Shown: positions 1,906 through 27,796 of the stretch, in pieces
How the letters are laid out: each line of letters opens with the position of its first letter
How positions within the stretch are numbered: position 1 is the stretch's first letter
DNA from: a virus
Virus record (IMG/VR): IMGVR_UViG_3300046558_000399
Coordinates: 1 to 37,271 of that record
Strand: one strand, 5' to 3'
DNA length: 37,271 bases
Translations under genes and position numbers: made by a program
Notes under the pieces: model-generated
Told to the model about the DNA's origin: nothing
Seen by the model: only the letters and a program-made list of their open reading frames with translations
The model's database searches: none

Positions 1906-1945
1906 GCCCGCCAAGGGGATATTGTGGTGAGAGCCGTTGGCGGGC
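1906..1945 (-). promoter_or_regulatory. RNA hairpin with CUCUCACCACAA loop, copy 1
   Basis: Perfect 9-bp inverted repeat (GCCCGCCAA / TTGGCGGGC, 1906-1914 with 1937-1945) enclosing a 22-base loop. On the transcribed minus strand the loop contains CTCTCACCACAA (1922-1933). It lies 20 bases upstream of the membrane-anchored gene at 1886. The same loop word occurs in three other hairpins and once without an obvious stem in this window, with unrelated stem sequences. Confidence 0.75.
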
Positions 1946-1955
1946 CAGGTCTTAA

Positions 1956-2777
1956 TTAGATGGTTGCTTCGTACATCGGGACGTCGCCGATAGCGCCTTG
2001 GATCTTGGCGCGGACAGTGGTGTAGGCCTCTTCAAGCACCTTGTCCGGACGGACCAATTCAAACCACATGACGAGCTTTCCTTCGGTGATGCGGTAGCGG
2101 AAGCGCGCCGGGACGCAGAACGCATCGCCGCCCAGGAAAGGCTTCACGGCGATGTAAAATTGCTCGGGAATGCTGAGCTGGCCTGCTTCACCTGCGCGGC
2201 CGTCGATTTCTTCGTTGTACGTCAGCTGGACCTGTCCGTTATCCAGTCGGGTGCCTTGGCGGAAAGTGATATTTTTCTTGGCTTCCAGCGTGCGGCTGAT
2301 TTCCAGCATGTCGGCGGAGTTCGGAGCCTTCGGGGTGTTCTCCGGCGTGGTGATGTCTTTGATGTTTTCTTCGATGAACTCGGCGAAGTCCGCTTGGTTC
2401 ATGCGCTTGCGGTCTGCGGCTTTCCAGCGGCCCCATTCAATACTGATCGGGCAGCAGTACGTCGCGATGTGATTGCCCCATGATGGTGTGCCTGGTTGGT
2501 GATAGTCGAGAACCGCAGTGAAAGTGCGGCCTTCGGGGCCATTGCAGAACACGGCAGCGGCCGAGCTGGTGAAGCGATTGACGTATGCGATGAACGTGTC
2601 AGCGTCGAGCACACGGATATCCTGTTTGATGCGCGTCGGTGCGGGCAGCAGGTGTTCGAGGTCCTGAATCTTCACGCTTTGCGGTAGCAGGGTAATAGGG
2701 GCAGAGAGGCCGGGGTGGGTGATCGGCTTGCCCAGTGCTTGGGCGAGGGTTACCAGTTGCGTGATAGCTTCTTGCAT
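1956..2777 (-). CDS. DUF2303 family protein (YfdQ-like)
   Basis: A 273-residue soluble protein resembling the DUF2303/YfdQ family found in many temperate phages of Proteobacteria. Supporting stretches are the central HxPGTPSWGNHIATYCCP-like core around residues 93-112, W-x-x-W after it, and a C-terminal half with GDAFCVPARFRYRI and LVMWFELVRPDKV. The family's function is not established; it is typically an early gene in recombination or replication neighbourhoods. The length is normal for the family. A GGAG ribosome site precedes the ATG, and a copy of CTCTCACCACAA sits at 2792-2803, immediately before this gene in the direction of transcription. Confidence 0.85.
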   Translation of the reverse strand: MQEAITQLVTLAQALGKPITHPGLSAPITLLPQSVKIQDLEHLLPAPTRIKQDIRVLDADTFIAYVNRFTSSAAAVFCNGPEGRTFTAVLDYHQPGTPSWGNHIATYCCPISIEWGRWKAADRKRMNQADFAEFIEENIKDITTPENTPKAPNSADMLEISRTLEAKKNITFRQGTRLDNGQVQLTYNEEIDGRAGEAGQLSIPEQFYIAVKPFLGGDAFCVPARFRYRITEGKLVMWFELVRPDKVLEEAYTTVRAKIQGAIGDVPMYEATI

Positions 2778-2791
2778 CGGAAGTGCTCCGG

Positions 2792-2803
2792 TTGTGGTGA
2801 GAG
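2792..2803 (-). promoter_or_regulatory. CTCTCACCACAA motif, unpaired copy
   Basis: Minus-strand CTCTCACCACAA located 15-26 bases upstream of the DUF2303 start codon at 2777. Unlike the other four copies I find no convincing flanking inverted repeat; only a short CGGA/TCCG hairpin over the ribosome site follows it. It lies between two genes of the same operon. Confidence 0.6.
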
Positions 2804-2807
2804 ATTT

Positions 2808-3152
2808 TTACTGTGAGACGTGACGCAGCTGGCCCAGCCCTTCGTCATCCTCGACCGGCCGCAGCGGCAGGTCTTGCTGACGTGGGTCGCGGCGCGTGAG
2901 GTTGCCTTCCGGGGTCAGGAAGAACAGCGAAGTACCGCGAGACATCTTCGGTTCGTTCACCTTGACCTCGGCCTTGATGTTCATCTGGCCGCGCCCATCG
3001 GGCTTGTAGGCCAGCTTGATCACCAGTTCACCGCCCTTGCCCGCGAGGCGGATTGCGTCGACCAGCCGGTGCTGGTGTTCACTCAGTTCGTCGAGGAGGG
3101 CGCCCGCTTCGATGTCGCGCAGGGTCTCGAAAAAGGGTCTTGCTTTGCTCAT
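2808..3152 (-). CDS. Phage early protein of unknown function, companion of DUF2303
   Basis: A 114-residue protein without a named domain that I can assign. The sequence has a charged helical N-terminal half (LRDIEAGALLDELSEHQHRLVDAI) and a beta-rich second half (GELVIKLAYKP, MNIKAEVKVNEP, GTSLFFLTPEGNLTRRDPRQ). The C-terminal phrase about a residue stretch with R-D-P-R-Q is commonly seen in short Pseudomonas phage proteins next to DUF2303, so I infer a shared function. The ATG is preceded by GGCACAGCAC, similar to the leader of the gene at 1886. Confidence 0.7.
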   Translation of the reverse strand: MSKARPFFETLRDIEAGALLDELSEHQHRLVDAIRLAGKGGELVIKLAYKPDGRGQMNIKAEVKVNEPKMSRGTSLFFLTPEGNLTRRDPRQQDLPLRPVEDDEGLGQLRHVSQ

Positions 3153-3200
3153 GTGCTGTGCCTTTAGTGAATGGCCCTGGTGAGTAGGCCGGTAATGGTG

Positions 3201-3440
3201 TTAGGCCGCCTGTGCGCGCTGTGCGTCGAGGTAGGCCGCGAGGTCATGCAGGTAAACGACAATCAGCCCCTTACTGGAGCCGCCGAGACGAGTCAGCTTG
3301 AGGTCAATCTGCCCGGCACTGATCTTGCGGCGCAGGTACTTGTCGCTCGATATGTGCGAGAAGTAGCGCTCGCGCACGCTGCTCAGGGTTGGGCATGGAG
3401 TAGCGAACTCTGTGCGTAGTTGTTCCAAGGTCGAACTCAA
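3201..3440 (-). CDS. PrtN-family (pyocin activator) DNA-binding protein
   Basis: A 79-residue protein matching the pyocin-activator PrtN family: R-x-R-Y-F-S-H-I-S-x-D-K-Y-L-R-R-K-I in the first half, followed by G-x-I-x-L-x-x-x-R and V-Y-L-H-D-L-A-A-Y-L-D near the end. In P. aeruginosa PrtN activates pyocin genes by binding P-boxes. Here it is an early gene of a prophage and may activate phage or host promoters. The start is a TTG at 3440, supported by a strong GGGGAGG five bases upstream and by TTGA overlap with the stop of the preceding gene. The family match is by recognition of the motif pattern; its targets are unknown. Confidence 0.82.
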   Translation of the reverse strand: MSSTLEQLRTEFATPCPTLSSVRERYFSHISSDKYLRRKISAGQIDLKLTRLGGSSKGLIVVYLHDLAAYLDAQRAQAA

Positions 3441-3802
3441 GGTGCCTCCCCATGCCCCACCTTAGGGGCCTGAACCTTTCGGCGAATCAGTGCTGCCAGT
3501 TCATCTTGGGTGCGGGCGGTTGCGGTCGCTTGAAGCTGTCCTGTTTGGTCGGCGATGACGGCGCCATAGGGAGCGGTCGTGTCATGGGTCAGCGTGACGT
3601 ATGCGATCAGGTGGCTTGGGATCGCCGCGTCAACCTTGCGAAAAGCCTCTGCCAGCTCCAGCGTGTGGCCCCGCAGGTCGGCCTGCAGAGCGCCTGCCGC
3701 CGTCCCGATCAGAGTCGTACGGCAAACCATCGCCGGTGTTGCGAACTGAAAGGGCGTGCCTACAGCTGCGCCCATTACGTGTGCGAGAGTGTTGGTATTC
3801 AT
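3437..3802 (-). CDS. Unknown early phage protein (121 aa)
   Basis: Not recognised. The start at 3802 is chosen because its ATGA overlaps the stop of the upstream KilAC-like gene (3799-3802); a longer reading frame upstream would run inside that gene. The protein has an alternating beta/alpha look (LIAYVTLTHD, PYGAVIADQTGQLQATATARTQDELAALI), suggesting a small mixed fold rather than a DNA-binding helix bundle. It is coupled on both sides (ATGA with the upstream gene, TTGA with the PrtN-like gene), which supports it as a genuine operon member. Confidence 0.65.
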   Translation of the reverse strand: MNTNTLAHVMGAAVGTPFQFATPAMVCRTTLIGTAAGALQADLRGHTLELAEAFRKVDAAIPSHLIAYVTLTHDTTAPYGAVIADQTGQLQATATARTQDELAALIRRKVQAPKVGHGEAP

Positions 3803-4080
3803 GCTGCTGCGTCCTTGTCTTTGCGAGAGATTGGCTTTTCCAGTTGCTTGGCCAGCCACGCGACGCCGTCTTCTTTCACCATCACCACGCCGTAATGGGC
3901 GTACTTCTTGAGGGCGGCATTCCAACGGCTGCGCGTGTCGACGAACATGAAGCCCTTATCGCGATGGTGGCTTGCCAGGTCGCCGCCCTCGGTCAGAATG
4001 CGCAACTCGCGCAGGCGTTGCCGAAAGGCGCGTGGCTTGATGCCGAGCACGGCTGCGGTTTCGTCCAGGGTTCTGTTCAT
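3799..4080 (-). CDS. KilAC/antirepressor C-terminal-like DNA-binding protein
   Basis: A 93-residue protein resembling the C-terminal KilAC domain of phage antirepressors (ANT family): residues 1-30 (LDETAAVLGIKPRAFRQRLRELRIL) form the helix-turn-helix-like start, and the rest follows the pattern of a G-F-M-F-V and Y-G-V-V-M-V-K-E-D-G strand pair ending W-L-A-K-Q-L. In full antirepressors this domain follows a Bro/AntA N-terminus; here it stands alone. Likely a DNA-binding regulator of early genes, possibly acting against the repressor, though that is inference. A GAGG ribosome site lies about 8 bases before the ATG. Confidence 0.68.
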   Translation of the reverse strand: MNRTLDETAAVLGIKPRAFRQRLRELRILTEGGDLASHHRDKGFMFVDTRSRWNAALKKYAHYGVVMVKEDGVAWLAKQLEKPISRKDKDAAA

Positions 4081-4090
4081 GGCGACTGCC

Positions 4091-4663
4091 TCAGGCGACG
4101 GCGCGAAATGTGCGCATGCGGAGTGCGCGGTACATTTCGTCCAGTTGCTCGAGCAGCTCGCTCACGCCTGCGTCGTTGATGAGGGTCAGGTCGGCCGGGT
4201 GATCTGATACTCCTGCCTCGCTGACGTGCGGATTCACTGCTTGGGCGTCGGGCCGCACCAGGTGGATGATCGTGCCGCCTTGCTTGCGAATGAAGTCCGC
4301 TTCGTTCTCGAAGCGGACATCACTGATCACGAAACCGGGCAGGTGGTGGTGCAGTGTTCCCAGGCAGTCCAGGTTCTGCCTGGCAAGATCGATCCAGAGG
4401 TCAGCGCTGATCATGTGACGGCCCCATTCCGTGCCGAGCAACTGCATCAGCTGTCGCGGGGAGCGGCCCAGCCACGGAATAGGCTGCTCTTTCGCATCAC
4501 CCTCAAGGTCTTCAGGGGTGAGATTGAAAATTGCCATGATGCCCTCGCGCAGAGGATTGGCGAATGCATAGCTCGCCAAGAAGTGCTCGGCGGTGAGGTG
4601 ATTGGCAATGGTGGTTTTCCCGGAGCGGGCAGGGCCGGTAAGGCCAATGAGGATCTGGCTCAT
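4091..4663 (-). CDS. Deoxynucleoside monophosphate kinase
   Basis: A 190-residue P-loop kinase that would phosphorylate dNMPs to dNDPs for phage DNA synthesis. The Walker A is GPARSGKTT (about residues 10-18). It has the phage dNMP-kinase signatures: FANPLREGI, then G-R-S-P-R-Q-L-M-Q-L-L-G-T-E-W-G-R, and V-I-S-D-V-R-F-x-N-E-A near residue 120, as in T4 gp1-like proteins. The start at 4663 is preferred over one 6 codons upstream because its ATGA overlaps the stop of the preceding small gene (4660-4663). It is part of the leftward early operon. Confidence 0.9.
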   Translation of the reverse strand: MSQILIGLTGPARSGKTTIANHLTAEHFLASYAFANPLREGIMAIFNLTPEDLEGDAKEQPIPWLGRSPRQLMQLLGTEWGRHMISADLWIDLARQNLDCLGTLHHHLPGFVISDVRFENEADFIRKQGGTIIHLVRPDAQAVNPHVSEAGVSDHPADLTLINDAGVSELLEQLDEMYRALRMRTFRAVA

Positions 4664-4854
4664 GCTGCGTCCCCGCCCCATGGAGTGCTGCTGTCGTCGT
4701 AAGCCTGTGCAGCGGCAGGGCGGGCGCGAGGCTTGGTGCTGATGATGACGAGCAGACCGGTTTGGCGTTGGATTACGTCAATGGTGGCCGGGGTGGTTGC
4801 TGCTGCCGGGTGTAGGTACACCGGGCAGCGGGGTTTGTGCTGTTTCGTTTGCAT
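4660..4854 (-). CDS. Small unknown protein (64 aa), first gene of the leftward operon
   Basis: Not recognised. It is the promoter-proximal gene of the leftward early operon, and its stop overlaps the dNMP kinase start (ATGA). The sequence is basic and Pro/Ala-rich (KPRCPVYLHP; TKPRARPAAA) with a hydrophobic strand in the middle (GLLVIIST). There is no clear Shine-Dalgarno sequence. The start codon sits at the foot of the hairpin 4857-4885, so the leader structure may control its translation. Lambda-type phages often place an antitermination factor at this position, but nothing in the sequence proves that role here. Confidence 0.6.
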   Translation of the reverse strand: MQTKQHKPRCPVYLHPAAATTPATIDVIQRQTGLLVIISTKPRARPAAAQAYDDSSTPWGGDAA

Positions 4855-4856
4855 GG

Positions 4857-4885
4857 CTCGTACTCTGTGGTGAGAGGGTTACGAG
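4857..4885 (-). promoter_or_regulatory. RNA hairpin with CUCUCACCACA loop, copy 2 (5' end of left transcript)
   Basis: Inverted repeat CTCGTA/TACGAG (4857-4862 with 4880-4885) around a 17-base loop that reads ACCCTCTCACCACAGAG on the transcribed strand. A second arm pair (GTTTGC 4847-4852 / GCAAAC 4886-4891) extends the palindrome in DNA, but the predicted start point near 4883 would leave most of its 5' half out of the RNA. The element therefore lies at the extreme 5' end of the left early transcript. Confidence 0.7.
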
Positions 4886-4889
4886 GCAA

Positions 4890-4918
4890 ACAATACGATA
4901 TGTATTTGTTGGAGGCAA
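4890..4918 (-). promoter_or_regulatory. Predicted leftward early promoter (PL-like)
   Basis: On the minus strand a -35 TTGCCT (4918-4913) and a -10 TATTGT (4895-4890) are separated by 17 bases. Both hexamers are covered by AATAC-N5-GTATT operators (4917-4931 and 4892-4906), as expected for a repressor-controlled early promoter. It would transcribe the operon from the gene at 4854 towards the integrase. Confidence 0.65.
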
Positions 4919-4931
4919 TACGATTTGTATT
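4892..4931. promoter_or_regulatory. Left operator: two AATAC-N5-GTATT sites
   Basis: Two palindromic 15-mers, AATACGATATGTATT (4892-4906) and AATACGATTTGTATT (4917-4931), with centres 25 bases apart. The same palindrome occurs between the repressor and cro genes, so these are very probably binding sites for the prophage repressor and Cro-like protein. Confidence 0.8.
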
Positions 4932-4957
4932 TTTATGTGTCTTGCCTTGCCGATGCT

Positions 4958-5206
4958 TTATTGATCGGGGGTCACGAACCATGTAATCAGCAGGCTGCCG
5001 TTAGGACGCTTCGTGACGGAAACTCCTTCAGCGTCGCTGATCTCGGACACGAGCCGGTCCCAGTTCTGGTCTGTATCTCCTGGCTCGCGGGTGATGATGG
5101 CCTGGTGATCAATCTGGGATTTTGGGCTAAATATGACGGTCTGTATTCTACGAGTAAGCAATATATAGCTCTCGTGTTCGGTAATCTCGGGTGACCAGCT
5201 GCTCAT
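4958..5206 (-). CDS. DUF1654 family protein, LexA-boxed
   Basis: An 82-residue protein that fits DUF1654, a small family common in Pseudomonas and its phages: S-Y-x-L-L-x-R-R-I-Q near the start, then a middle D-x-x-W-D-R-L-V-S-E-I segment and an end of V-x-V-T-K-R-x-N-G-S-L-L-I-x-W. Function is unknown. The start at 5206 is chosen for its AAGGAGG Shine-Dalgarno 7 bases upstream; a farther ATG at 5233 lies inside the LexA box. The LexA box at 5224-5239 overlaps its probable -10 region, so it should be induced by DNA damage independently of the prophage repressor. It sits between the left operator and the repressor gene. Confidence 0.83.
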   Translation of the reverse strand: MSSWSPEITEHESYILLTRRIQTVIFSPKSQIDHQAIITREPGDTDQNWDRLVSEISDAEGVSVTKRPNGSLLITWFVTPDQ

Positions 5207-5223
5207 GGGAGAACCTCCTTTTA

Positions 5224-5239
5224 CTGTTTGCATATACAG
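5224..5239. promoter_or_regulatory. LexA box (SOS operator) of the DUF1654 gene
   Basis: CTGTTTGCATATACAG is a perfect CTGT-N8-ACAG LexA palindrome, 18 bases upstream of the DUF1654 start. A minus-strand TTGCCG lies 17 bases from TACTGT, which would put the box over the -10 element. A near-identical box occurs at 36135-36150. Confidence 0.85.
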
Positions 5240-5318
5240 TATTCTGCGCTGCCTCCCACGGCAAGAGGGAAATAATCCTACGAGTAGATTTATCCTTTTA
5301 TTTCATGGGGTTGAGGTC

Positions 5319-5343
5319 AAAAAAAACCCTGCCGGAGCAGGGT
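5319..5343 (-). terminator. Rho-independent terminator of the repressor gene
   Basis: ACCCTGC/GCAGGGT stem (5326-5332 with 5337-5343), four-base loop, followed on the minus strand by a run of eight T. It lies 22 bases after the repressor stop codon and separates it from the DUF1654 gene. Confidence 0.9.
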
Positions 5344-5364
5344 CAGTTTTACTGTAGTTAGCCT

Positions 5365-6012
5365 CTATAGCGCCGTCTTGGCAGACACCACAACTCCGAT
5401 CAGTCGACAGTGCTCGGTGATTGGCGTTATCGGATAGCCTGGATTGAGAGGCTTAAGGAAGTACATGCCGGAGTCTTCAACCAGCTTTTTGAATGTAGCC
5501 TTATTGCTTTCTGGGAGCTTGGCGATAACGAGTTTTCCGGGCGACGGTTCGATCCCCGTGTCGACGAGAATAAGCATCCCTTCCGGCACGCTCTGGCCTG
5601 CACCTACCGGTGCCGTCATTGAATCGCCTACTACCTGAAGCCAGAAAGCCGGGCCTTTCGCTTTATAGTCGGTGAGTTCGTAGGTGTCGGCTGCGCCTGG
5701 CTCGTAAGGTTCTACAGCTTCAGCCCATCCGCCAGCGGTAACCCAGCTAATGACCGGATAACGATAGAGCCGGTCAGGCGAAACGTCAGCGCTTGAGGGT
5801 TCCACGGTGGAAGTGGTGGTCGATATCAGGCCCAAGCCGGGCAACCCGAGCACACCGAAAAGGCGGTTGATTGTCTCAAGCTTAGGCTCGCGCTCACCTC
5901 TTAACCAATGCCCCACCGCGCCTTGAGTAACGCCCAAGCGGACGCCCATCTCCTCTTGGCTGATGTCCTGTTCTTCCATCACTTTTTTAGCTATTTCATA
6001 CCATTCGCTCAT
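5365..6012 (-). CDS. CI-type prophage repressor with S24 autoprotease domain
   Basis: A 215-residue repressor that maintains lysogeny. Residues 5-55 are an HTH of the XRE type (EEMGVRLGVTQGAVGHWLRGER). Residues about 85-215 are a LexA/UmuD-like S24 protease: cleavage dipeptide Ala93-Gly94 (WVTAGGW), nucleophile Ser131 (VVGDSMTAP) and general base Lys175 (ATFKKL). RecA-stimulated self-cleavage would make the prophage SOS-inducible. The start at 6012 is chosen because the HTH aligns and because the predicted promoter (-35 TTGCCC 6047-6042, -10 TATTAT 6025-6020) would begin transcription at or within 1-2 bases of this ATG. No Shine-Dalgarno is present, so the message is probably leaderless, as for lambda cI from PRM. 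Confidence 0.95.
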   Translation of the reverse strand: MSEWYEIAKKVMEEQDISQEEMGVRLGVTQGAVGHWLRGEREPKLETINRLFGVLGLPGLGLISTTTSTVEPSSADVSPDRLYRYPVISWVTAGGWAEAVEPYEPGAADTYELTDYKAKGPAFWLQVVGDSMTAPVGAGQSVPEGMLILVDTGIEPSPGKLVIAKLPESNKATFKKLVEDSGMYFLKPLNPGYPITPITEHCRLIGVVVSAKTAL

Positions 6013-6019
6013 GCCCAAA

Positions 6020-6047
6020 ATAATACAGGGCGTATTTTTATGGGCAA
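6020..6047 (-). promoter_or_regulatory. Predicted repressor promoter (PRM-like) giving a leaderless message
   Basis: Minus-strand -35 TTGCCC (6047-6042) and -10 TATTAT (6025-6020) with a 16-base spacer. The operator at 6022-6036 overlaps the -10, so high repressor or Cro levels should shut it off. The expected start point coincides with the repressor ATG. Confidence 0.6.
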
Positions 6048-6095
6048 TCGACAGACTGTATTGAGAGCTTGCACGGAAAAAATACAAAGTGTATT
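6022..6095. promoter_or_regulatory. Right operator: three AATAC-N5-GTATT-type sites
   Basis: Two perfect palindromes, AATACAGGGCGTATT (6022-6036) and AATACAAAGTGTATT (6081-6095), flank a degenerate one (6048-6062, right half GTATT intact). The arrangement mirrors a three-site OR. Site 6081-6095 covers the -10 of the rightward promoter and site 6022-6036 the -10 of the repressor promoter. Confidence 0.8.
6061..6088 (+). promoter_or_regulatory. Predicted rightward early promoter (PR-like)
   Basis: -35 TTGAGA (6061-6066) and -10 TACAAA (6083-6088) with a 16-base spacer, overlapping the operators. It would transcribe cro, the structured leader, the CII-like gene and the replication genes. Confidence 0.6.
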
Positions 6096-6123
6096 GTCTC
6101 GGTCGAACATCAAGGAGGTTGCC

Positions 6124-6357
6124 ATGAGCGCCCTAAGTATTGCTCGAAAGGCTGCAAAGCTTACGCAGCAGGATCTTGCTGAAAAGGTCGGTCTGACACA
6201 GGCCGCAATCGGTCATTACGAATCGGGGCGGCGTACGCCACGGTTGGCGGAATGTCGGCGGATTGTTTCGGTACTGAGCGGTGCAGGTGTCTCTTGCAGT
6301 CTTGAGACGGTTTTCCCAGAAGACCCGGCTGCGACTGAGACCAAGTCTGCTGCATGA
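6124..6357 (+). CDS. cro: Cro-like XRE-family regulator
   Basis: A 77-residue helix-turn-helix protein, divergent from the repressor across the operator region. Residues 4-55 form an XRE domain (ARKAAKLTQQDLAEKVGLTQ, then HYESGRRTPRL). The start at 6124 has an ideal AAGGAGG Shine-Dalgarno 5 bases upstream; a longer in-frame reading frame begins inside the operators and is not credible. It is expected to compete with the repressor for the same palindromes and drive the lytic choice. The tail beyond residue 60 is acidic and variable. Confidence 0.9.
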   Translation: MSALSIARKAAKLTQQDLAEKVGLTQAAIGHYESGRRTPRLAECRRIVSVLSGAGVSCSLETVFPEDPAATETKSAA

Positions 6358-6369
6358 CATGAAGTTGCT

Positions 6370-6409
6370 GGGCCGGGGTGTCTCTCACCACAAGATGTAA
6401 CCCCGACCC
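6370..6409 (+). promoter_or_regulatory. RNA hairpin with CUCUCACCACAA loop, copy 3
   Basis: Ten-base arms (6370-6379 with 6400-6409) with a single C.A mismatch enclose a 20-base loop holding CTCTCACCACAA (6382-6393) from loop position 3. It starts 13 bases after the cro stop codon, on the rightward early transcript. Confidence 0.75.
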
Positions 6410-6416
6410 CGCTGGG

Positions 6417-6433
6417 GCAGTGCAAAACACTGC
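6417..6433 (+). promoter_or_regulatory. Small hairpin inside the cro-cII leader
   Basis: GCAGTG/CACTGC (6417-6422 with 6428-6433) with loop CAAAA. It sits between the two motif-loop hairpins, and a short CCCC-GCT-GGGG hairpin (6407-6417) abuts it. No T-run follows, so it is not an obvious terminator. Confidence 0.5.
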
Positions 6434-6440
6434 TAACTCC

Positions 6441-6480
6441 GCCGACCAGGTTCTCTCACCACAAGTATCGCCTGGTCGGC
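6441..6480 (+). promoter_or_regulatory. RNA hairpin with CUCUCACCACAA loop, copy 4
   Basis: Perfect 10-bp inverted repeat GCCGACCAGG/CCTGGTCGGC (6441-6450 with 6471-6480) around a 20-base loop with CTCTCACCACAA at 6453-6464, again from loop position 3. Stem length, loop length and motif register match copy 3, but the stem sequence differs entirely. Confidence 0.8.
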
Positions 6481-6567
6481 TCGAACGATGAACCGTGCGG
6501 CACAGCACGATTAGCACAGCACATCGGTCGTGGCTGAAGGATAAGGCGTGCCCTGTCCTCTGGCTAC

Positions 6568-6590
6568 ACCGTAAATGGGGATTTTACGGT
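6568..6590 (+). promoter_or_regulatory. Hairpin exposing the ribosome-binding site of the CII-like gene in its loop
   Basis: Perfect 8-bp arms ACCGTAAA/TTTACGGT (6568-6575 with 6583-6590) enclose loop TGGGGAT. The loop contains GGGGA (6577-6581), the only Shine-Dalgarno-like sequence before the ATG at 6592. The start codon follows the stem by one base. Confidence 0.65.
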
Positions 6591-6591
6591 T

Positions 6592-7080
6592 ATGAGTCGC
6601 ACAGACCTTTTGCCGGACGCTGGTCCGGTTCTTTCTTTGCGCCAAGCGCTTTACCGCGCCGGGCGTGACTATAAGGGCGGTGTGACCGCCCTTGCTTTTG
6701 ACATGGTGATGGACAACGACGCCCTGCAAAAGAAGCTCAACTTGGATGAGGAGCGCCGCTGGCCTACGCCTGACGAGCTGGAAGAAATTATCAGGTTGAC
6801 GCAGAGCCCTCTGTTAATGGATGCGCTGATGCGGCCTGCCGGAGCAGTCTGGTATCGCCCGATCCCTATGCCAGCGTCCTGCGCGGCACTCAAGGCTGTC
6901 GGCAAGATGCTGGAGGAGTCCGGCGAATTTGTCGCGAGCATGCACGACGGCGCTGCTGACAATAAGTGGGAACGGCATGAGGTCCTTGAGCTTGAGTCAC
7001 GCGGCATGGATGTCATCCGCGAAGTGTTGGGCATCATGGCCGGGGCCAGGGAAGCGATGGAGGCCAGCAACAATGGCTGA
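6592..7080 (+). CDS. CII-like phage regulatory protein (CP76 family)
   Basis: A 162-residue protein that fits the phage regulatory CII/CP76 family: the N-terminal phrase LRQALYRAGRDYKGGVTALA with a following D-A-L-Q-K-K-L-N is the family's helix-turn-helix hallmark, and the all-helical remainder (EELEEIIRLTQ-type segment, then a C-terminal helix with MDVIREVLGIMAGAREAME) is as expected. Members act as DNA-binding regulators of lysogeny or replication. It occupies the lambda cII position, downstream of cro and upstream of the replication genes. Its ribosome site lies in a hairpin loop. It overlaps the next gene by 8 bases. Confidence 0.82.
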   Translation: MSRTDLLPDAGPVLSLRQALYRAGRDYKGGVTALAFDMVMDNDALQKKLNLDEERRWPTPDELEEIIRLTQSPLLMDALMRPAGAVWYRPIPMPASCAALKAVGKMLEESGEFVASMHDGAADNKWERHEVLELESRGMDVIREVLGIMAGAREAMEASNNG

Positions 7081-10256: not shown

Positions 10257-10279
10257 ATCGTTTGCGGGGGGATTTGGGG

Positions 10280-10747
10280 ATGATCAAGGAGATTGAGAGC
10301 CTGATGGTTCATTGGGGCGAGCAACTGGCCCGGCACGGCCTGGGAGCGGGAATCGGCAGCCAGATGGGCAGCATCATGGAATGGAAAGGCACCGCGCCTC
10401 GCGGCACACCCGGTTCACGAATCGTCAGCGGCGGCGCGGGTATGGACCAGGTCGCGAGTGAAATCGACGCCGTGATCGCGGGCCTTGAGCGTGGTGCCGC
10501 GCCGGAGCAGAAGCTGGCGAAGCTCGCGCGGCAACGGTACTGCCAGTGCGTGACGGTGCGGGAGCAGATGCAAACGGCTGGCATTGCCGAAGGCGCTGAC
10601 CGTACTTACCGAAACTGGGTGCGACGGTTGCATGAGCGTGTGCTGCTGGATCTGACCATGCGTACTCGAACCAGTCGGGGCTATGAGCGGCAGGGTGGTA
10701 ACGACCACCAGACGGCCCTCATTCGCACCAATGTTCTGGGCCGGTGA
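10280..10747 (+). CDS. Candidate late-gene transcription regulator (Q/ArpU-like), unproven
   Basis: A 155-residue protein, start at 10280 (GGGGATTTGGGG immediately upstream; a longer frame begins in the iterons). I do not recognise a named domain with certainty. The N-terminus has a conserved-looking W-G-E-Q-L-A-R-H-G and G-S-Q-M-G-S-I-M-E-W-K-G. The second half (KLAKLARQRYCQCVTVREQM, then EGADRTYRNWVRRLHERVL) resembles the sigma-region-4-like helix-turn-helix of ArpU/RinA/Q-type late regulators. It lies exactly where such a regulator is expected: last gene of the rightward early operon, just before the late control region with phased repeats and a terminator. Function is inferred from position and size. 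Confidence 0.55.
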   Translation: MIKEIESLMVHWGEQLARHGLGAGIGSQMGSIMEWKGTAPRGTPGSRIVSGGAGMDQVASEIDAVIAGLERGAAPEQKLAKLARQRYCQCVTVREQMQTAGIAEGADRTYRNWVRRLHERVLLDLTMRTRTSRGYERQGGNDHQTALIRTNVLGR

Positions 10748-10780
10748 CATGACCGTTCGTCAGGGTACTTTGTCGTATGT

Positions 10781-10811
10781 GGGTCACATCCGGGTCAGAT
10801 TCGGGTCACAT
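10781..10811. repeat. Three helically phased GGGTCACAT repeats upstream of the late operon
   Basis: GGGTCACAT (10781-10789), GGGTCAGAT (10792-10800) and GGGTCACAT (10803-10811) repeat every 11 bases. This looks like an activator-binding array placed between the possible late regulator gene and the lysis/head genes. Confidence 0.6.
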
Positions 10812-10818
10812 TTGGTTG

Positions 10819-10846
10819 AACCGAAAAACACCGCTTTTCGGTTTTT
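10819..10846 (+). terminator. Hairpin followed by T-run in the late control region
   Basis: AACCGAAAA/TTTTCGGTT (10819-10827 with 10835-10843), seven-base loop, then TTT. It could terminate early rightward transcription or be read through by antitermination. Confidence 0.55.
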
Positions 10847-10926
10847 CCGAACCCCGGTACAAAGTGTCCACGATCTGACATTTGCGCTTTGCGCGTCGGG
10901 TTGAGCACGGTGCTGTGCTGCTTCAG

Positions 10927-10978
10927 GGAGTCCGCGACGGACTCCATTCAACCCCGCTAAGTGCGGGGTTTTCTATTT
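10927..10978 (+). terminator. Tandem hairpins ending in an intrinsic terminator before the holin genes
   Basis: First hairpin GGAGTCCG/CGGACTCC (10927-10934 with 10938-10945, loop CGA), then CCCCGC/GCGGGG (10952-10957 with 10963-10968, loop TAAGT) followed by TTTTCTATTT. The second is a textbook Rho-independent terminator, 32 bases upstream of the first holin gene, so late transcription must start after it or be antiterminated. Confidence 0.8.
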
Positions 10979-24900: not shown

Positions 24901-27796
24901 TGGATCGGGCGGCATCGCCTCTGTGGCCAACAAGCTGTACAGCGCTTACAACATCGTCACCGGCGTGGGTGCCAAAGTGGTCGCAGGTTATGCCGAGGCG
25001 GGTATTCCCGGTGCTGCGAAAGCCGGGGTCGGTTACTACACCGATAAAGTCAGCGCCCTGTACGACATTGCCAAGAGCGGTATGGCGACACTGTTGGGCC
25101 AGCAGACCGCTCTGCAAATCGCGCAGCAGGCGGCCACCCAGGCCGCACTGAATTACGGTATCACCGAAGGTGTGGCCAGCACCGTAGGCCAGTTCACTCT
25201 GGATGCGGCCGGTCAGCAGATCGCTGCTGGAATGGTGCAGCAAGCCGCCACCCAAGGAGTTGCCCAGGCAGCTGGCGCGCAAGGCGCGAGTAGTGGTGCT
25301 ACCAGTGCGCTGGGCAGCGCCGCGTCTATGTGGCCGCTCGCTGTCCTGATGGGCATGATCCAGTCCGGCAAGTTGTACAGCGCGGGTGTGCGTCCTGATG
25401 CCAGCGAAATGTACAACAGTGCTGGTGGCACCGGGCTGGGCAAGGTGGTGATGAGCATCCCGACCTTGACCGCGAAAGCCTTTGAAATCGTCGATGGCGC
25501 ACTGAGCAAGATCGTTGGCGGCAAGGCTGCCGCAATCCTCACCGGTTCTACGTTGTACCAGGCGGTGTGGAGCAAAGTCGGTAGCAAGCTGTTTGGGACC
25601 GGCTACCAAACCAAGGACGCCGGTATTCAGCTTGCGGTTAAGGCGGGCGAATTCGACGCCTTGCAGTACACGAAACAGAAGAAAAAAGGCGGCCTGATCT
25701 CTGGCAGCTCGAAAACACGTTACCTGTACAACGAGCTGCCGGACGACACGGAAGACGCCCTTGGCAGCGAGTACAACACGACGGTCATGGGCGCGATGGC
25801 GTTGTTCACGCAGTTGGGCGTAAAGCTCAACGACAGCGTGCTTGACGGCCTCAACATGGCCTCAGCCCAGATCAGCACCCAGGGTAAAACCTCGGAGCAG
25901 ATCCAAGCCGAGATCGATCATTGGTTCGCACTGCTGGGTGACCAGGTCGTTGTTGCTGTGTCCAAGGCCACCGATGCGGGTGTCAGCGGGTTCAGTTACG
26001 TTGGCCTGCAGGCGTTCGTAAAGAACCTGTACGACGTGAACACCATGCTCAAGCACGTCAACATCGGTCTTTACGACATGTCGGTGACGGGCGGCTTCAT
26101 GGCCGAGCAGTTGTCGGCCATGGGCGGCGGATTCGAAGAACTGCAGAAGTCCGTCAGCGGTTACTACGACGCTTTCTTCTCGGATAACCAAAAGTCGATC
26201 GATACCATCAGTGATATTCAGGACGTGTTCGACGGCCTGAATATCAAACTGCCCGACAGCCGTGATGGCTTCCGGGCCATGGTCGAAGGCATCGACAAGT
26301 CGACCGAGGCTGGCCGCAAACTGTTTGTCACGCTGATGACCCTAGCGTCCACGGCCGACCAGGCTTACGACATTATCGAGGCCCGCCAGAAGACGTATTA
26401 CGACGCCTTTTACAGCGAATCGGAGAACACCGCGCGCACCGTCGCCGGGGTTACTGCCGAGTTCAAAAAAGCGAACGTGACGTTGCCTGCGAGCCGCGAA
26501 GGGTATCGGGCATTAGTCGACGGTATCGACCGTACAACCGAATCCGGCAAGACGTTGTACAACACGCTGACGGCGCTGGCTGGCTCGGCAGACACGTTCT
26601 ATAAGGCTCAGGAACAGGTACAGGCTGCTGCGAAAACAGCGGCCCTGACCAGCGTCAGCAACGCTATGAGCGCTCTGCAACGAGCGGTCGCTGCCGAGAA
26701 AAGCGCGCTTACCGCCGCCTATAACGCTCGCATGACGTCGTTAAACGACATGCTGTCGACGGCCCAGGCCAACGTTTCCGGGCTCACGAACACTGGCAAT
26801 GCGCTGGAAGCCGCGCTGAAATCGCTCAACGGCACGTCTGAAACGACAGTAAGGACGTTGCGCGAGCAAGCCAAGGCAACGCTTCAGAGCGCCCTGGCTT
26901 CGGCTCAGGGCGGCGGATCGCTGTCGGGTTTCGCAGGTCTTGACGACGCCCTGACGGCGGTCAGCACCAACACCACGGACATGTACGGCTCGCTCGAAGA
27001 CTTCACCAGAGAGCAGGGCCGTACAGCGAACGTGGTCGCGCAGTTGAACGCCATCAACGGCGTGCAACTGACGGCGCAGCAGCAATTGCTGAAGAGCGTG
27101 CAGGAGCAAATCGCGAATGCCAAGGATCAGTTCGACCTGCAGATGTCCGGGCTGGACGACCAGCTCGAGGCCGCTCAGAAGCAACTGGACGCGCTGAACG
27201 GCATCGACACGTCGATCCTGAGCGTTGCCCAAGCGCTGATTGCGTTCAATGCCTCGGTACAGGCTGCGATTGCAGGCGCTGCTGCGGCCGCCGCTGCAGC
27301 CAATAAGCCTGCTGCACCTTCGGGAGGCGGTTACACAGGGACGGCGGGTGGGGCGGGTTACAACGATATCAACGCCATATACCAGGCTGTTCTGGGGCGC
27401 GACGCGGACTACGCCGGATCGGTTTACTGGGGCGGCAAGGCCGGGTCGATGACTCCGGATCAATTGGCGGCGCAGATCAAAGCTGATGCGACCGCGAACG
27501 GTGAAATCAAGGGCTATGCCTCGGGTGGCTTCCACTCCGGCGGCTTGCGCCTGGTTGGCGAGAACGGTCCTGAGCTGGAGGTCACCGGGCCGTCTCGGAT
27601 CTACAACGCAGATCAGACGGCGGCAATGCTTCGCGGCGGCGGTGATAACTCGGCGCTGTTGGCCGAGGTTCGGCAACTACGGGCCGAAAGTCGGCAAGCA
27701 CAGTTCCAGATCGCAAAAAATACGCAGCAGTTGGGCGTGCAATTGCGTAAGTGGGACGACGAGGGCACTCCGAAAGAACGGGATTACTCACTATGA
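21956..27796 (+). CDS. Tape measure protein with duplicated 78-residue unit and DUF4214-like end
   Basis: A 1946-residue tail tape measure. The N-terminal part is a long coiled coil with hydrophobic stretches (about 62-82 and 400-425) suited to membrane passage during DNA ejection. The middle is Ala/Gln/Lys-rich helical. Two 78-residue units start at Y1403 and Y1481 (both YYDAF...E/D...TA or TI...D-G-F/Y-R-A-L/M-V-x-G-I-D), a clear tandem duplication. Residues about 1800-1855 fit DUF4214 (Y-N-D-I-N-A-I-Y-Q-A-V-L-G-R-D-A-D-Y-A-G), and the end has the common tape-measure tail G-G-L-R-L-V-G-E-N-G-P-E-L. Such length suggests a long tail. It overlaps the next gene by ATGA. Confidence 0.93.
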   Translation: MADADVQGLLVRIEATTAQMRQELARGEASVASTATRMDTQLKRVDDAFDRAGEHAESMREAMGGVFNGVALGAAAAVAGLVAITQKTAEYATQVKSQAALSNTTTDQFQRLAAGARTVSVEQEKLADIFKDTTDRVGEFTQRGGGEMADFFKEIAPRVGVTAKMFQNLSGPDALQLYYNSLEKAGLNQQQVTTYMEAMADEATALIPLLKNNGAGFKDFGDKAERAGNVLSSFQLDQFAEIDQTIKTLGVSFDGASKQLATGLLPGVQSVADRLNSMSDNGAMELIGQGVGFLADNVNVLAAILGGKAAAAFVSYTQSIVNSGAAVIQSRAANMALASSAVDTAAANQLAAQSAVVRAEREAIAARGTAVQTQMSIQLAEARMAEKAATDQVAAAQTRLAAARGTVMGFLGGPAGLAALAAGVAIAFFTLRDNTADLEKRLGDLADPMDKLIGRFEKLNRATQAVTLRELQATIADTQSKIGQMSGAMADKFENDLRGMGAAGADGLMSGLVNLPADTQAALELVRKASKDQAAGVAVDWKAVADQLRTMPGVTEDMARSLESSQAPVADLSALLQKQQQTLASLTAETDKNTASQNQNTAAKTMASAAGEKYIADMTKQLQGQQDKTFTEQANRFISENKDLTEAQIVAIRSLGAARDAQKTSDDAATQATKDSASATKKAASEEEARQKALKDLKTQADIAIASAQGLAAAYADGTDRSRELSIQQKAEEALLKTGAAARSEVIAKLNAERDAQDSLSVSKAAYDLERETSDLVAHAKAQLQGSSALEAYNLQKSMTVALAGKNIDFGSKEYDQLLKQTKAQVQATKALEAANKANDLVDRLNPQLKLLKDYAEDQKALNEAITQYPEKADLYRESLTKLGQEYDDNQAKMSVWGRLTEAAVDRVDKVFADMWLNVGDGFKGFSEGLMDGFKQLLAELAHEAITKPILISFANTVLGTNKSGGVGDVIGALSGEGDSSSGSGGIASVANKLYSAYNIVTGVGAKVVAGYAEAGIPGAAKAGVGYYTDKVSALYDIAKSGMATLLGQQTALQIAQQAATQAALNYGITEGVASTVGQFTLDAAGQQIAAGMVQQAATQGVAQAAGAQGASSGATSALGSAASMWPLAVLMGMIQSGKLYSAGVRPDASEMYNSAGGTGLGKVVMSIPTLTAKAFEIVDGALSKIVGGKAAAILTGSTLYQAVWSKVGSKLFGTGYQTKDAGIQLAVKAGEFDALQYTKQKKKGGLISGSSKTRYLYNELPDDTEDALGSEYNTTVMGAMALFTQLGVKLNDSVLDGLNMASAQISTQGKTSEQIQAEIDHWFALLGDQVVVAVSKATDAGVSGFSYVGLQAFVKNLYDVNTMLKHVNIGLYDMSVTGGFMAEQLSAMGGGFEELQKSVSGYYDAFFSDNQKSIDTISDIQDVFDGLNIKLPDSRDGFRAMVEGIDKSTEAGRKLFVTLMTLASTADQAYDIIEARQKTYYDAFYSESENTARTVAGVTAEFKKANVTLPASREGYRALVDGIDRTTESGKTLYNTLTALAGSADTFYKAQEQVQAAAKTAALTSVSNAMSALQRAVAAEKSALTAAYNARMTSLNDMLSTAQANVSGLTNTGNALEAALKSLNGTSETTVRTLREQAKATLQSALASAQGGGSLSGFAGLDDALTAVSTNTTDMYGSLEDFTREQGRTANVVAQLNAINGVQLTAQQQLLKSVQEQIANAKDQFDLQMSGLDDQLEAAQKQLDALNGIDTSILSVAQALIAFNASVQAAIAGAAAAAAAANKPAAPSGGGYTGTAGGAGYNDINAIYQAVLGRDADYAGSVYWGGKAGSMTPDQLAAQIKADATANGEIKGYASGGFHSGGLRLVGENGPELEVTGPSRIYNADQTAAMLRGGGDNSALLAEVRQLRAESRQAQFQIAKNTQQLGVQLRKWDDEGTPKERDYSL

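Follow-up and report, generated by a model that had tools for sequence, protein, structure and literature searches.

Hairpins with a phage-specific loop word in the early operons of Pseudomonas phages point to an undescribed control system resembling lambda N/nut antitermination

To our knowledge, the control of early genes beyond the repressor is poorly known in lambda-like Pseudomonas phages. The stretch of viral DNA analysed here, called the window, comprises 37,271 nucleotides (nt) of IMG/VR record IMGVR_UViG_3300046558_000399, and one short word, the 11-mer CTCTCACCACA, recurs in its early operons, mostly in the loop of a predicted RNA hairpin. The locus raises the question of what these hairpins are, what reads them and what they do. 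As far as sequence can tell, they act in cis as RNA elements of the early transcripts, each combining a hairpin that carries a phage-specific loop word with an invariant linear element, and the signs on which we rely are conservation, covariation, a composite layout and concerted switching of the word. Taken together, these hairpins point to a phage-specific control system, so far undescribed, with a likeness to lambda N/nut antitermination.

The 11-mer has exactly five matches in the window, where 0.02 are expected, and none of 100 shuffled sequences reached five. When up to two mismatches were allowed, the extra matches in the window did not exceed background. All five copies (Table 1) are in the sense direction of the left (minus strand) or the right (plus strand) early operon, as a sequence-only reading of this DNA had stated, together with the absence of copies elsewhere. 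That reading had also placed four of the five copies in hairpins, and RNA folding agreed: site R2 (6441-6480) folds at -20.5 kcal/mol (z -5.8), site C (1904-1945) at -19.6 kcal/mol (z -4.0), site A (4853-4890) at -9.9 kcal/mol (z -4.4) and site R1 (6369-6410) at -18.3 kcal/mol (z -2.1), and the fifth copy, site B, is stemless, as had been implied. In the minimum-energy folds of A, R1 and R2, CUCU or CU of the word is predicted to pair with AGAG or AG inside the loop, and under this model the word is thus not wholly single-stranded.

Relatives were sampled by their close DUF2303 gene, which gave 77 viral contigs and 14 loci in Pseudomonas genomes, and phages KT1, SC_9 and LPPA56 were added. The core of the word, CUCUCAC(C), stands at the same positions in about 100 related Pseudomonas phages and prophages: A at the start of the left early transcript, B, stemless, before the DUF2303 gene, C after that gene, and R as one to five hairpins right after cro. 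The loop had been called invariant; this holds for the core of 7-8 nt, which is kept in relatives, but not for the 11-mer, and in some phages the core itself is replaced as a set. In most relatives sampled CTCTCACC lies a few tens of bases ahead of the DUF2303 gene, and 358 of its 371 occurrences fall at A, B, C or R positions, which is the non-random placement at early genes that the earlier reading had proposed to look for. These occurrences represent 285 distinct contexts, 191 of them with a strong enclosing stem, whereas permuted words average 30 contexts and four stems.

The stems are unlike between sites and covary within one site, while the loop is unchanged. Site C showed changes on both sides in 8 of 11 pairs, and the first R hairpin gave 26 double-changed cells; in both classes the covariation score was reached in none of 500 shuffles, and slid controls were far lower. 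Pair counts were made for these two classes, the MAFFT alignment of site A being out of structural register, and for the R class the support consists of the covariation score and the cell counts, as the number of pair types was not above shuffles. A covariance model built from one R class picked up the R sites outside that class, many of the C sites and three sites of the window. The proposal of a conserved loop on covarying stems is thus borne out in relatives, and the compensatory changes indicate that the element acts as RNA rather than as DNA.

The hairpins are trailed by a linear element, ACAGCAC(A), about 30-50 nt from the start of the loop word. In relatives CAGCAC, mostly inside ACACAGCACA, prefers spacings of 31-42 or 50-51 nt from that start, against a background of 0.06 per 75 nt. 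About half of the raw loop-word matches are without CAGCAC, a raw count into which chance matches in coding sequence, site B and the leading hairpins of tandem R sets also enter. The composite CTCTNAC-N18-45-ACACAGCACA was found in 26 of 300 Pseudomonas genomes, at 43 places that often lie several within a few kilobases, as prophages would give, and the reversed control gave 5 matches. Across the class, 3 of 369 genomes carry the pattern; one of them is the Pseudomonas centre, and the other two look like chance matches.

Five loop words were recognised, each uniform within a phage: CUCUCAC(C); CUCUGAC, in six genomes (G001-G006); CUCUAC, with one base missing, in LPPA56 and two contigs, hairpin A included; CUUACCA, in PG1 and its relatives; and CUCACCA, in sister phages of PG1. 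The PG1 clade divides into 18 loci with CUUACCA throughout and 25 with CUCACCA throughout, and hairpin A of the two groups is the same at 33 of 34 bases, the sole difference being a base of the loop word. Among 171 loci with at least two typed sites, 161 were uniform by script, compared with 94 in shuffles (maximum 107). Inspection raised this to 170, since nine of the ten exceptions were miscounted words: six came from CTCTAC in the sequence 3' of site C, and the other three from unrelated words far from the sites or in coding sequence. The only truly mixed locus (L049) carries CCUCACCA at site C. LPPA56 on the one hand and phages Lodos and Meadow on the other have different words in the same host species, Pseudomonas aeruginosa, and the choice of word therefore cannot lie with a host factor alone.

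For the function of these sites, we regard antitermination of the nut type, acting at untranslated gaps in the early operons, as the most likely mechanism, with chances of about one half. The placement at nut-like positions that had been noticed from the sequence stands, with site A at the predicted pL start and the R sites in the gap between cro and the CII-like gene, and the distribution extends beyond it. In two stretches, one running from the 64-amino-acid gene to the gene that follows DUF2303 and the other from cro to the primase gene, the gaps longer than 25 nt measure 48, 30, 69 and 234 nt, and each holds a site, the first a possible degenerate one; the remaining genes of these stretches overlap or almost abut. 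The element is thus repeated in untranslated gaps: where the pL transcript begins, behind cro, and in the gaps flanking the phrog_204 and DUF2303 genes. Since Rho acts in untranslated gaps, a repeated anti-Rho element would be a coherent reading. A phage-encoded protein would read the loop, a host factor would read ACAGCAC(A), and both together would modify RNA polymerase so that it resists termination, mainly of the Rho-dependent kind. The fuller proposal, a novel class of RNA-directed transcription control in Pseudomonas phages in the form of a processive anti-Rho antitermination system unrelated to N, boxA or put, in which a phage protein reads the switchable word, a host factor reads ACAGCAC and elements are reloaded at each gap, is one that we put forward more tentatively, at clearly less than even chances. 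The linear element, the concerted switches and the filling of untranslated gaps beyond the two nut positions were absent from the sequence-only reading.

Several results weigh against antitermination. No boxA-like GCUCUUNA was found near any site, and its four matches in the window, a number in line with chance, all lie past 22 kb. On the strand of the left operon, the stretch from site A to site C gave no strong intrinsic terminator, which leaves Rho-dependent ends as the sole possible target there. RNA folding gives no stem at site B (2775-2822; z -0.3), and no recognisable N-like protein was found among the early proteins. All universal early proteins except the CII-like one were excluded as reader of the loop, by identity across loop types or for want of a consistent difference, and the nearest solved fold to the CII-like protein (model mean pLDDT 78, a predicted local distance difference test) is the phage 186 CII transcriptional regulator, which is a DNA-binding protein. 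Finally, sites A, B, C and the degenerate site adjoin start codons, as a translational device would.

Translational control is accordingly the main rival, and we consider it possible though clearly less probable than antitermination: a phage RNA-binding protein on the hairpins would repress or activate initiation of the next gene, much as might be pictured for start-associated sequences. The sites just named lie 10-50 nt ahead of start codons, the linear element at C runs directly into ATG, and in some phages GGAG stands on the 3' side of the loop at site A. The R hairpins, however, stand behind cro and are separated from the CII-like start downstream by about 110-230 nt, and the linear element is present there with no conserved gene start, while at A it sits inside coding sequence; an element that abuts a start codon at C, lies in coding sequence at A and has no gene start at R is not a mere part of a ribosome-binding site. 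RNA stability or processing, in which the hairpins would protect 5' ends and the boundaries between cistrons or be cleaved by a nuclease that the phage directs, seems improbable. One site does stand at the 5' end of the predicted pL transcript, the others are at gene boundaries, and the stems are strong, but a generic stabiliser needs neither a loop word nor phage-wide concerted switching.

A target for antisense RNA of the P4 or P1 immunity type is most improbable. A common exposed loop word at several places of the early transcripts could serve kissing, but in the phages examined no complement of the word was found beyond the sites themselves and scattered coding matches; a 6-nt search of the CUUACCA/CUCACCA set gave no covarying complement, the conserved complements in CUUACCA phages being the sites themselves, with one minor exception; and a host RNA cannot account for two words in P. 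aeruginosa phages. Least probable of all is a DNA operator, for example asymmetric repressor stoperators, which the directional repeats in early intergenic regions would suit, since stem covariation has no reason at the DNA level and cI and cro vary widely among phages that share one loop word.

The earlier proposal of an RNA-binding protein or an antisense RNA as recogniser is thereby narrowed in favour of a protein, and because the words switch by phage within one host species and no covarying complementary RNA was found, the word is probably read by a protein that the phage encodes. Among the candidates, the 64-amino-acid phrog_13491 protein and the KilAC-like phrog_5689 protein are identical between CUUACCA and CUCACCA phages; the PrtN-like, DksA/TraR-like and KilAC-like proteins are identical between CUCUAC and CUCUCAC phages; and phrog_8889 has no consistent difference in the CUCUAC contrast. 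DUF2303 and phrog_204 were rejected because the former and most of the latter protein are missing from Lodos and Meadow, whose sites are intact. In these two phages (L256 9313-9480 and L101) the DUF2303 gene and the rest of the phrog_204 gene were lost, apparently by a deletion that spared site C.

What survives elimination is the CII-like protein, a weak candidate that we think unlikely to be the reader. Its tree requires the fewest loop changes (6, against 9-13 for other proteins), and discriminating residues lie near positions 125-129 in two contrasts, one of which comes down to a single residue. The CUCUGAC phages are not gathered in this tree and fall in three places; the CUCUGAC/CUCUCAC contrast has no common column, and one CUCUGAC subset has a scattered set of columns.

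Table 1. Coordinates of the sites, linear elements and related features in the window
Feature	Position	Strand	Basis
Site R2: hairpin, second of two after cro; loop word 6453-6463	6441-6480	+	Word matches, relatives, fold
Site R1: hairpin directly after the cro stop codon (6357); loop word 6382-6392	6370-6409	+	Word, relatives, covariance model, fold
Site A: hairpin where the left early transcript is predicted to start; loop word 4866-4876	4853-4887	-	Word, relatives, fold
Site B: stemless loop word, between the phrog_204 stop codon and the DUF2303 ribosome-binding site	2793-2803	-	Word, relatives
Site C: hairpin between DUF2303 and the next gene; loop word 1923-1933	1906-1945	-	Word, relatives, covariation, fold
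Possible degenerate site: small hairpin, loop ACUCACC, ahead of the phrog_204 gene	3173-3190	-	Read from sequence
Linear element CACAGCAC, two copies after R2, before the leader of the CII-like gene	6501-6508, 6515-6522	+	Sequence
Linear element AACAGCAC after site A, within the first codons of the 64-amino-acid gene	4837-4844	-	Sequence
Linear element CACAGCAC after site C, abutting the start codon	1887-1894	-	Sequence
Putative left promoter TTGCCT-17-TATTGT (8/12), overlapped by palindromes 4892-4906 and 4917-4931	4890-4918	-	By eye; below promoter-scan threshold
CII-like gene (PF06892, phrog_101), downstream of the R sites; weak candidate loop reader	6592-7080	+	Protein comparisons
64-amino-acid gene (phrog_13491) where lambda has N; excluded as loop reader	4660-4854	-	Protein comparisons

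The early gene order of the window is lambda-like: integrase (1-903), the left operon on the minus strand, an S24 repressor (5365-6012), cro (6124-6357), the CII-like gene, a DksA/TraR-like zinc finger and primase. The left operon comprises the 64-amino-acid gene, a nucleotide kinase, the KilAC-like phrog_5689, phrog_8889, PrtN-like, phrog_204, DUF2303 and further genes. Operator-like palindromes AATAC-N5-GTATT occur at 4892-4906, 4917-4931, 6022-6036 and 6081-6095, and it is plausible that a left transcript from the putative promoter would start a few bases from hairpin A. At the possible degenerate site CACAGCAC follows at 3153-3160, and some relatives have intact loop words at this place by the phrog_204 gene.

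Some further features of these genomes were observed. A hairpin CCGTAAA..TTTACGG with Shine-Dalgarno-like purines in its loop precedes the CII-like start codon (6565-6592, plus strand); it is conserved in all relatives read and may serve translational control of that gene. The leader CATCGGTCGTGG....A...TA..GCG (6515-6560, plus strand) is almost invariant across more than 100 viral contigs. A phrog_4300 protein (10262-10970, plus strand) is encoded where a late regulator would sit, followed by a strong terminator at 10950 (plus strand) and then by lysis and holin genes. LPPA56 carries an extra gene pair, one gene antisense, between cro and the R hairpins (L008 35660-36026), seen only in CUCUAC phages among the genomes compared. 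In one CUCUGAC phage (G004; L223) more CUCUGAC words lie at contig positions 25286 and 25488 on the minus strand, which is also that of the R hairpins, some 6 kb downstream of these, and one of the words is in a hairpin before a GGAGCAC ribosome-binding site.

Among known systems the closest likeness is to the lambda-type nut site, composed of boxA and the boxB hairpin and served by N and Nus factors: it too combines a phage-specific hairpin loop with an invariant linear element, stands at the start of the pL transcript and after cro, and differs in its loop among phages of one host. In contrast, the Pseudomonas sites have no boxA, ACAGCAC lies 3' of the hairpin, the loop is longer with no boxB-like purine pentaloop, there are 4-9 sites per phage, and no N-like protein was found. 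That the motif is neither boxA nor a lambda boxB had been said before and stands, with no GCTCTTNA before 22,239 and loops that carry CUCUCACC or variants; as the boxA test failed, we do not count the element among nut sites, although its mode of action may be similar. The put RNA of HK022 likewise forms hairpins in the early left and right transcripts; it acts in cis and needs no phage protein, so concerted loop switching is not expected of an element of that type, and the Pseudomonas element, unlike put, is repeated inside operons. The P4 and P1 antisense immunity RNAs share the feature of several short targets in early leaders, whereas no complementary RNA was found in the Pseudomonas phages. 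The SAS/ESAS of cluster K mycobacteriophages is a repeated, directional and asymmetric sequence at a subset of genes, about half of the copies with an inverted repeat, whose consensus GGGATAGGAGCCC stands at start codons (PMC3203893). The Pseudomonas element is also repeated and directional at some genes, but its word differs and sits in the loop of the repeat, its stems vary by site and its R sites are away from starts. The covariance models of Rfam 15 gave no matches above the gathering threshold in the window and three relatives, and we found no description of such an element in the open-access literature.

The element thus provides an exact, testable signal in about 9% of the Pseudomonas genomes sampled. 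Its five natural specificities are a ready-made set for finding the RNA-binding partner, and they may yield new orthogonal protein-RNA pairs.

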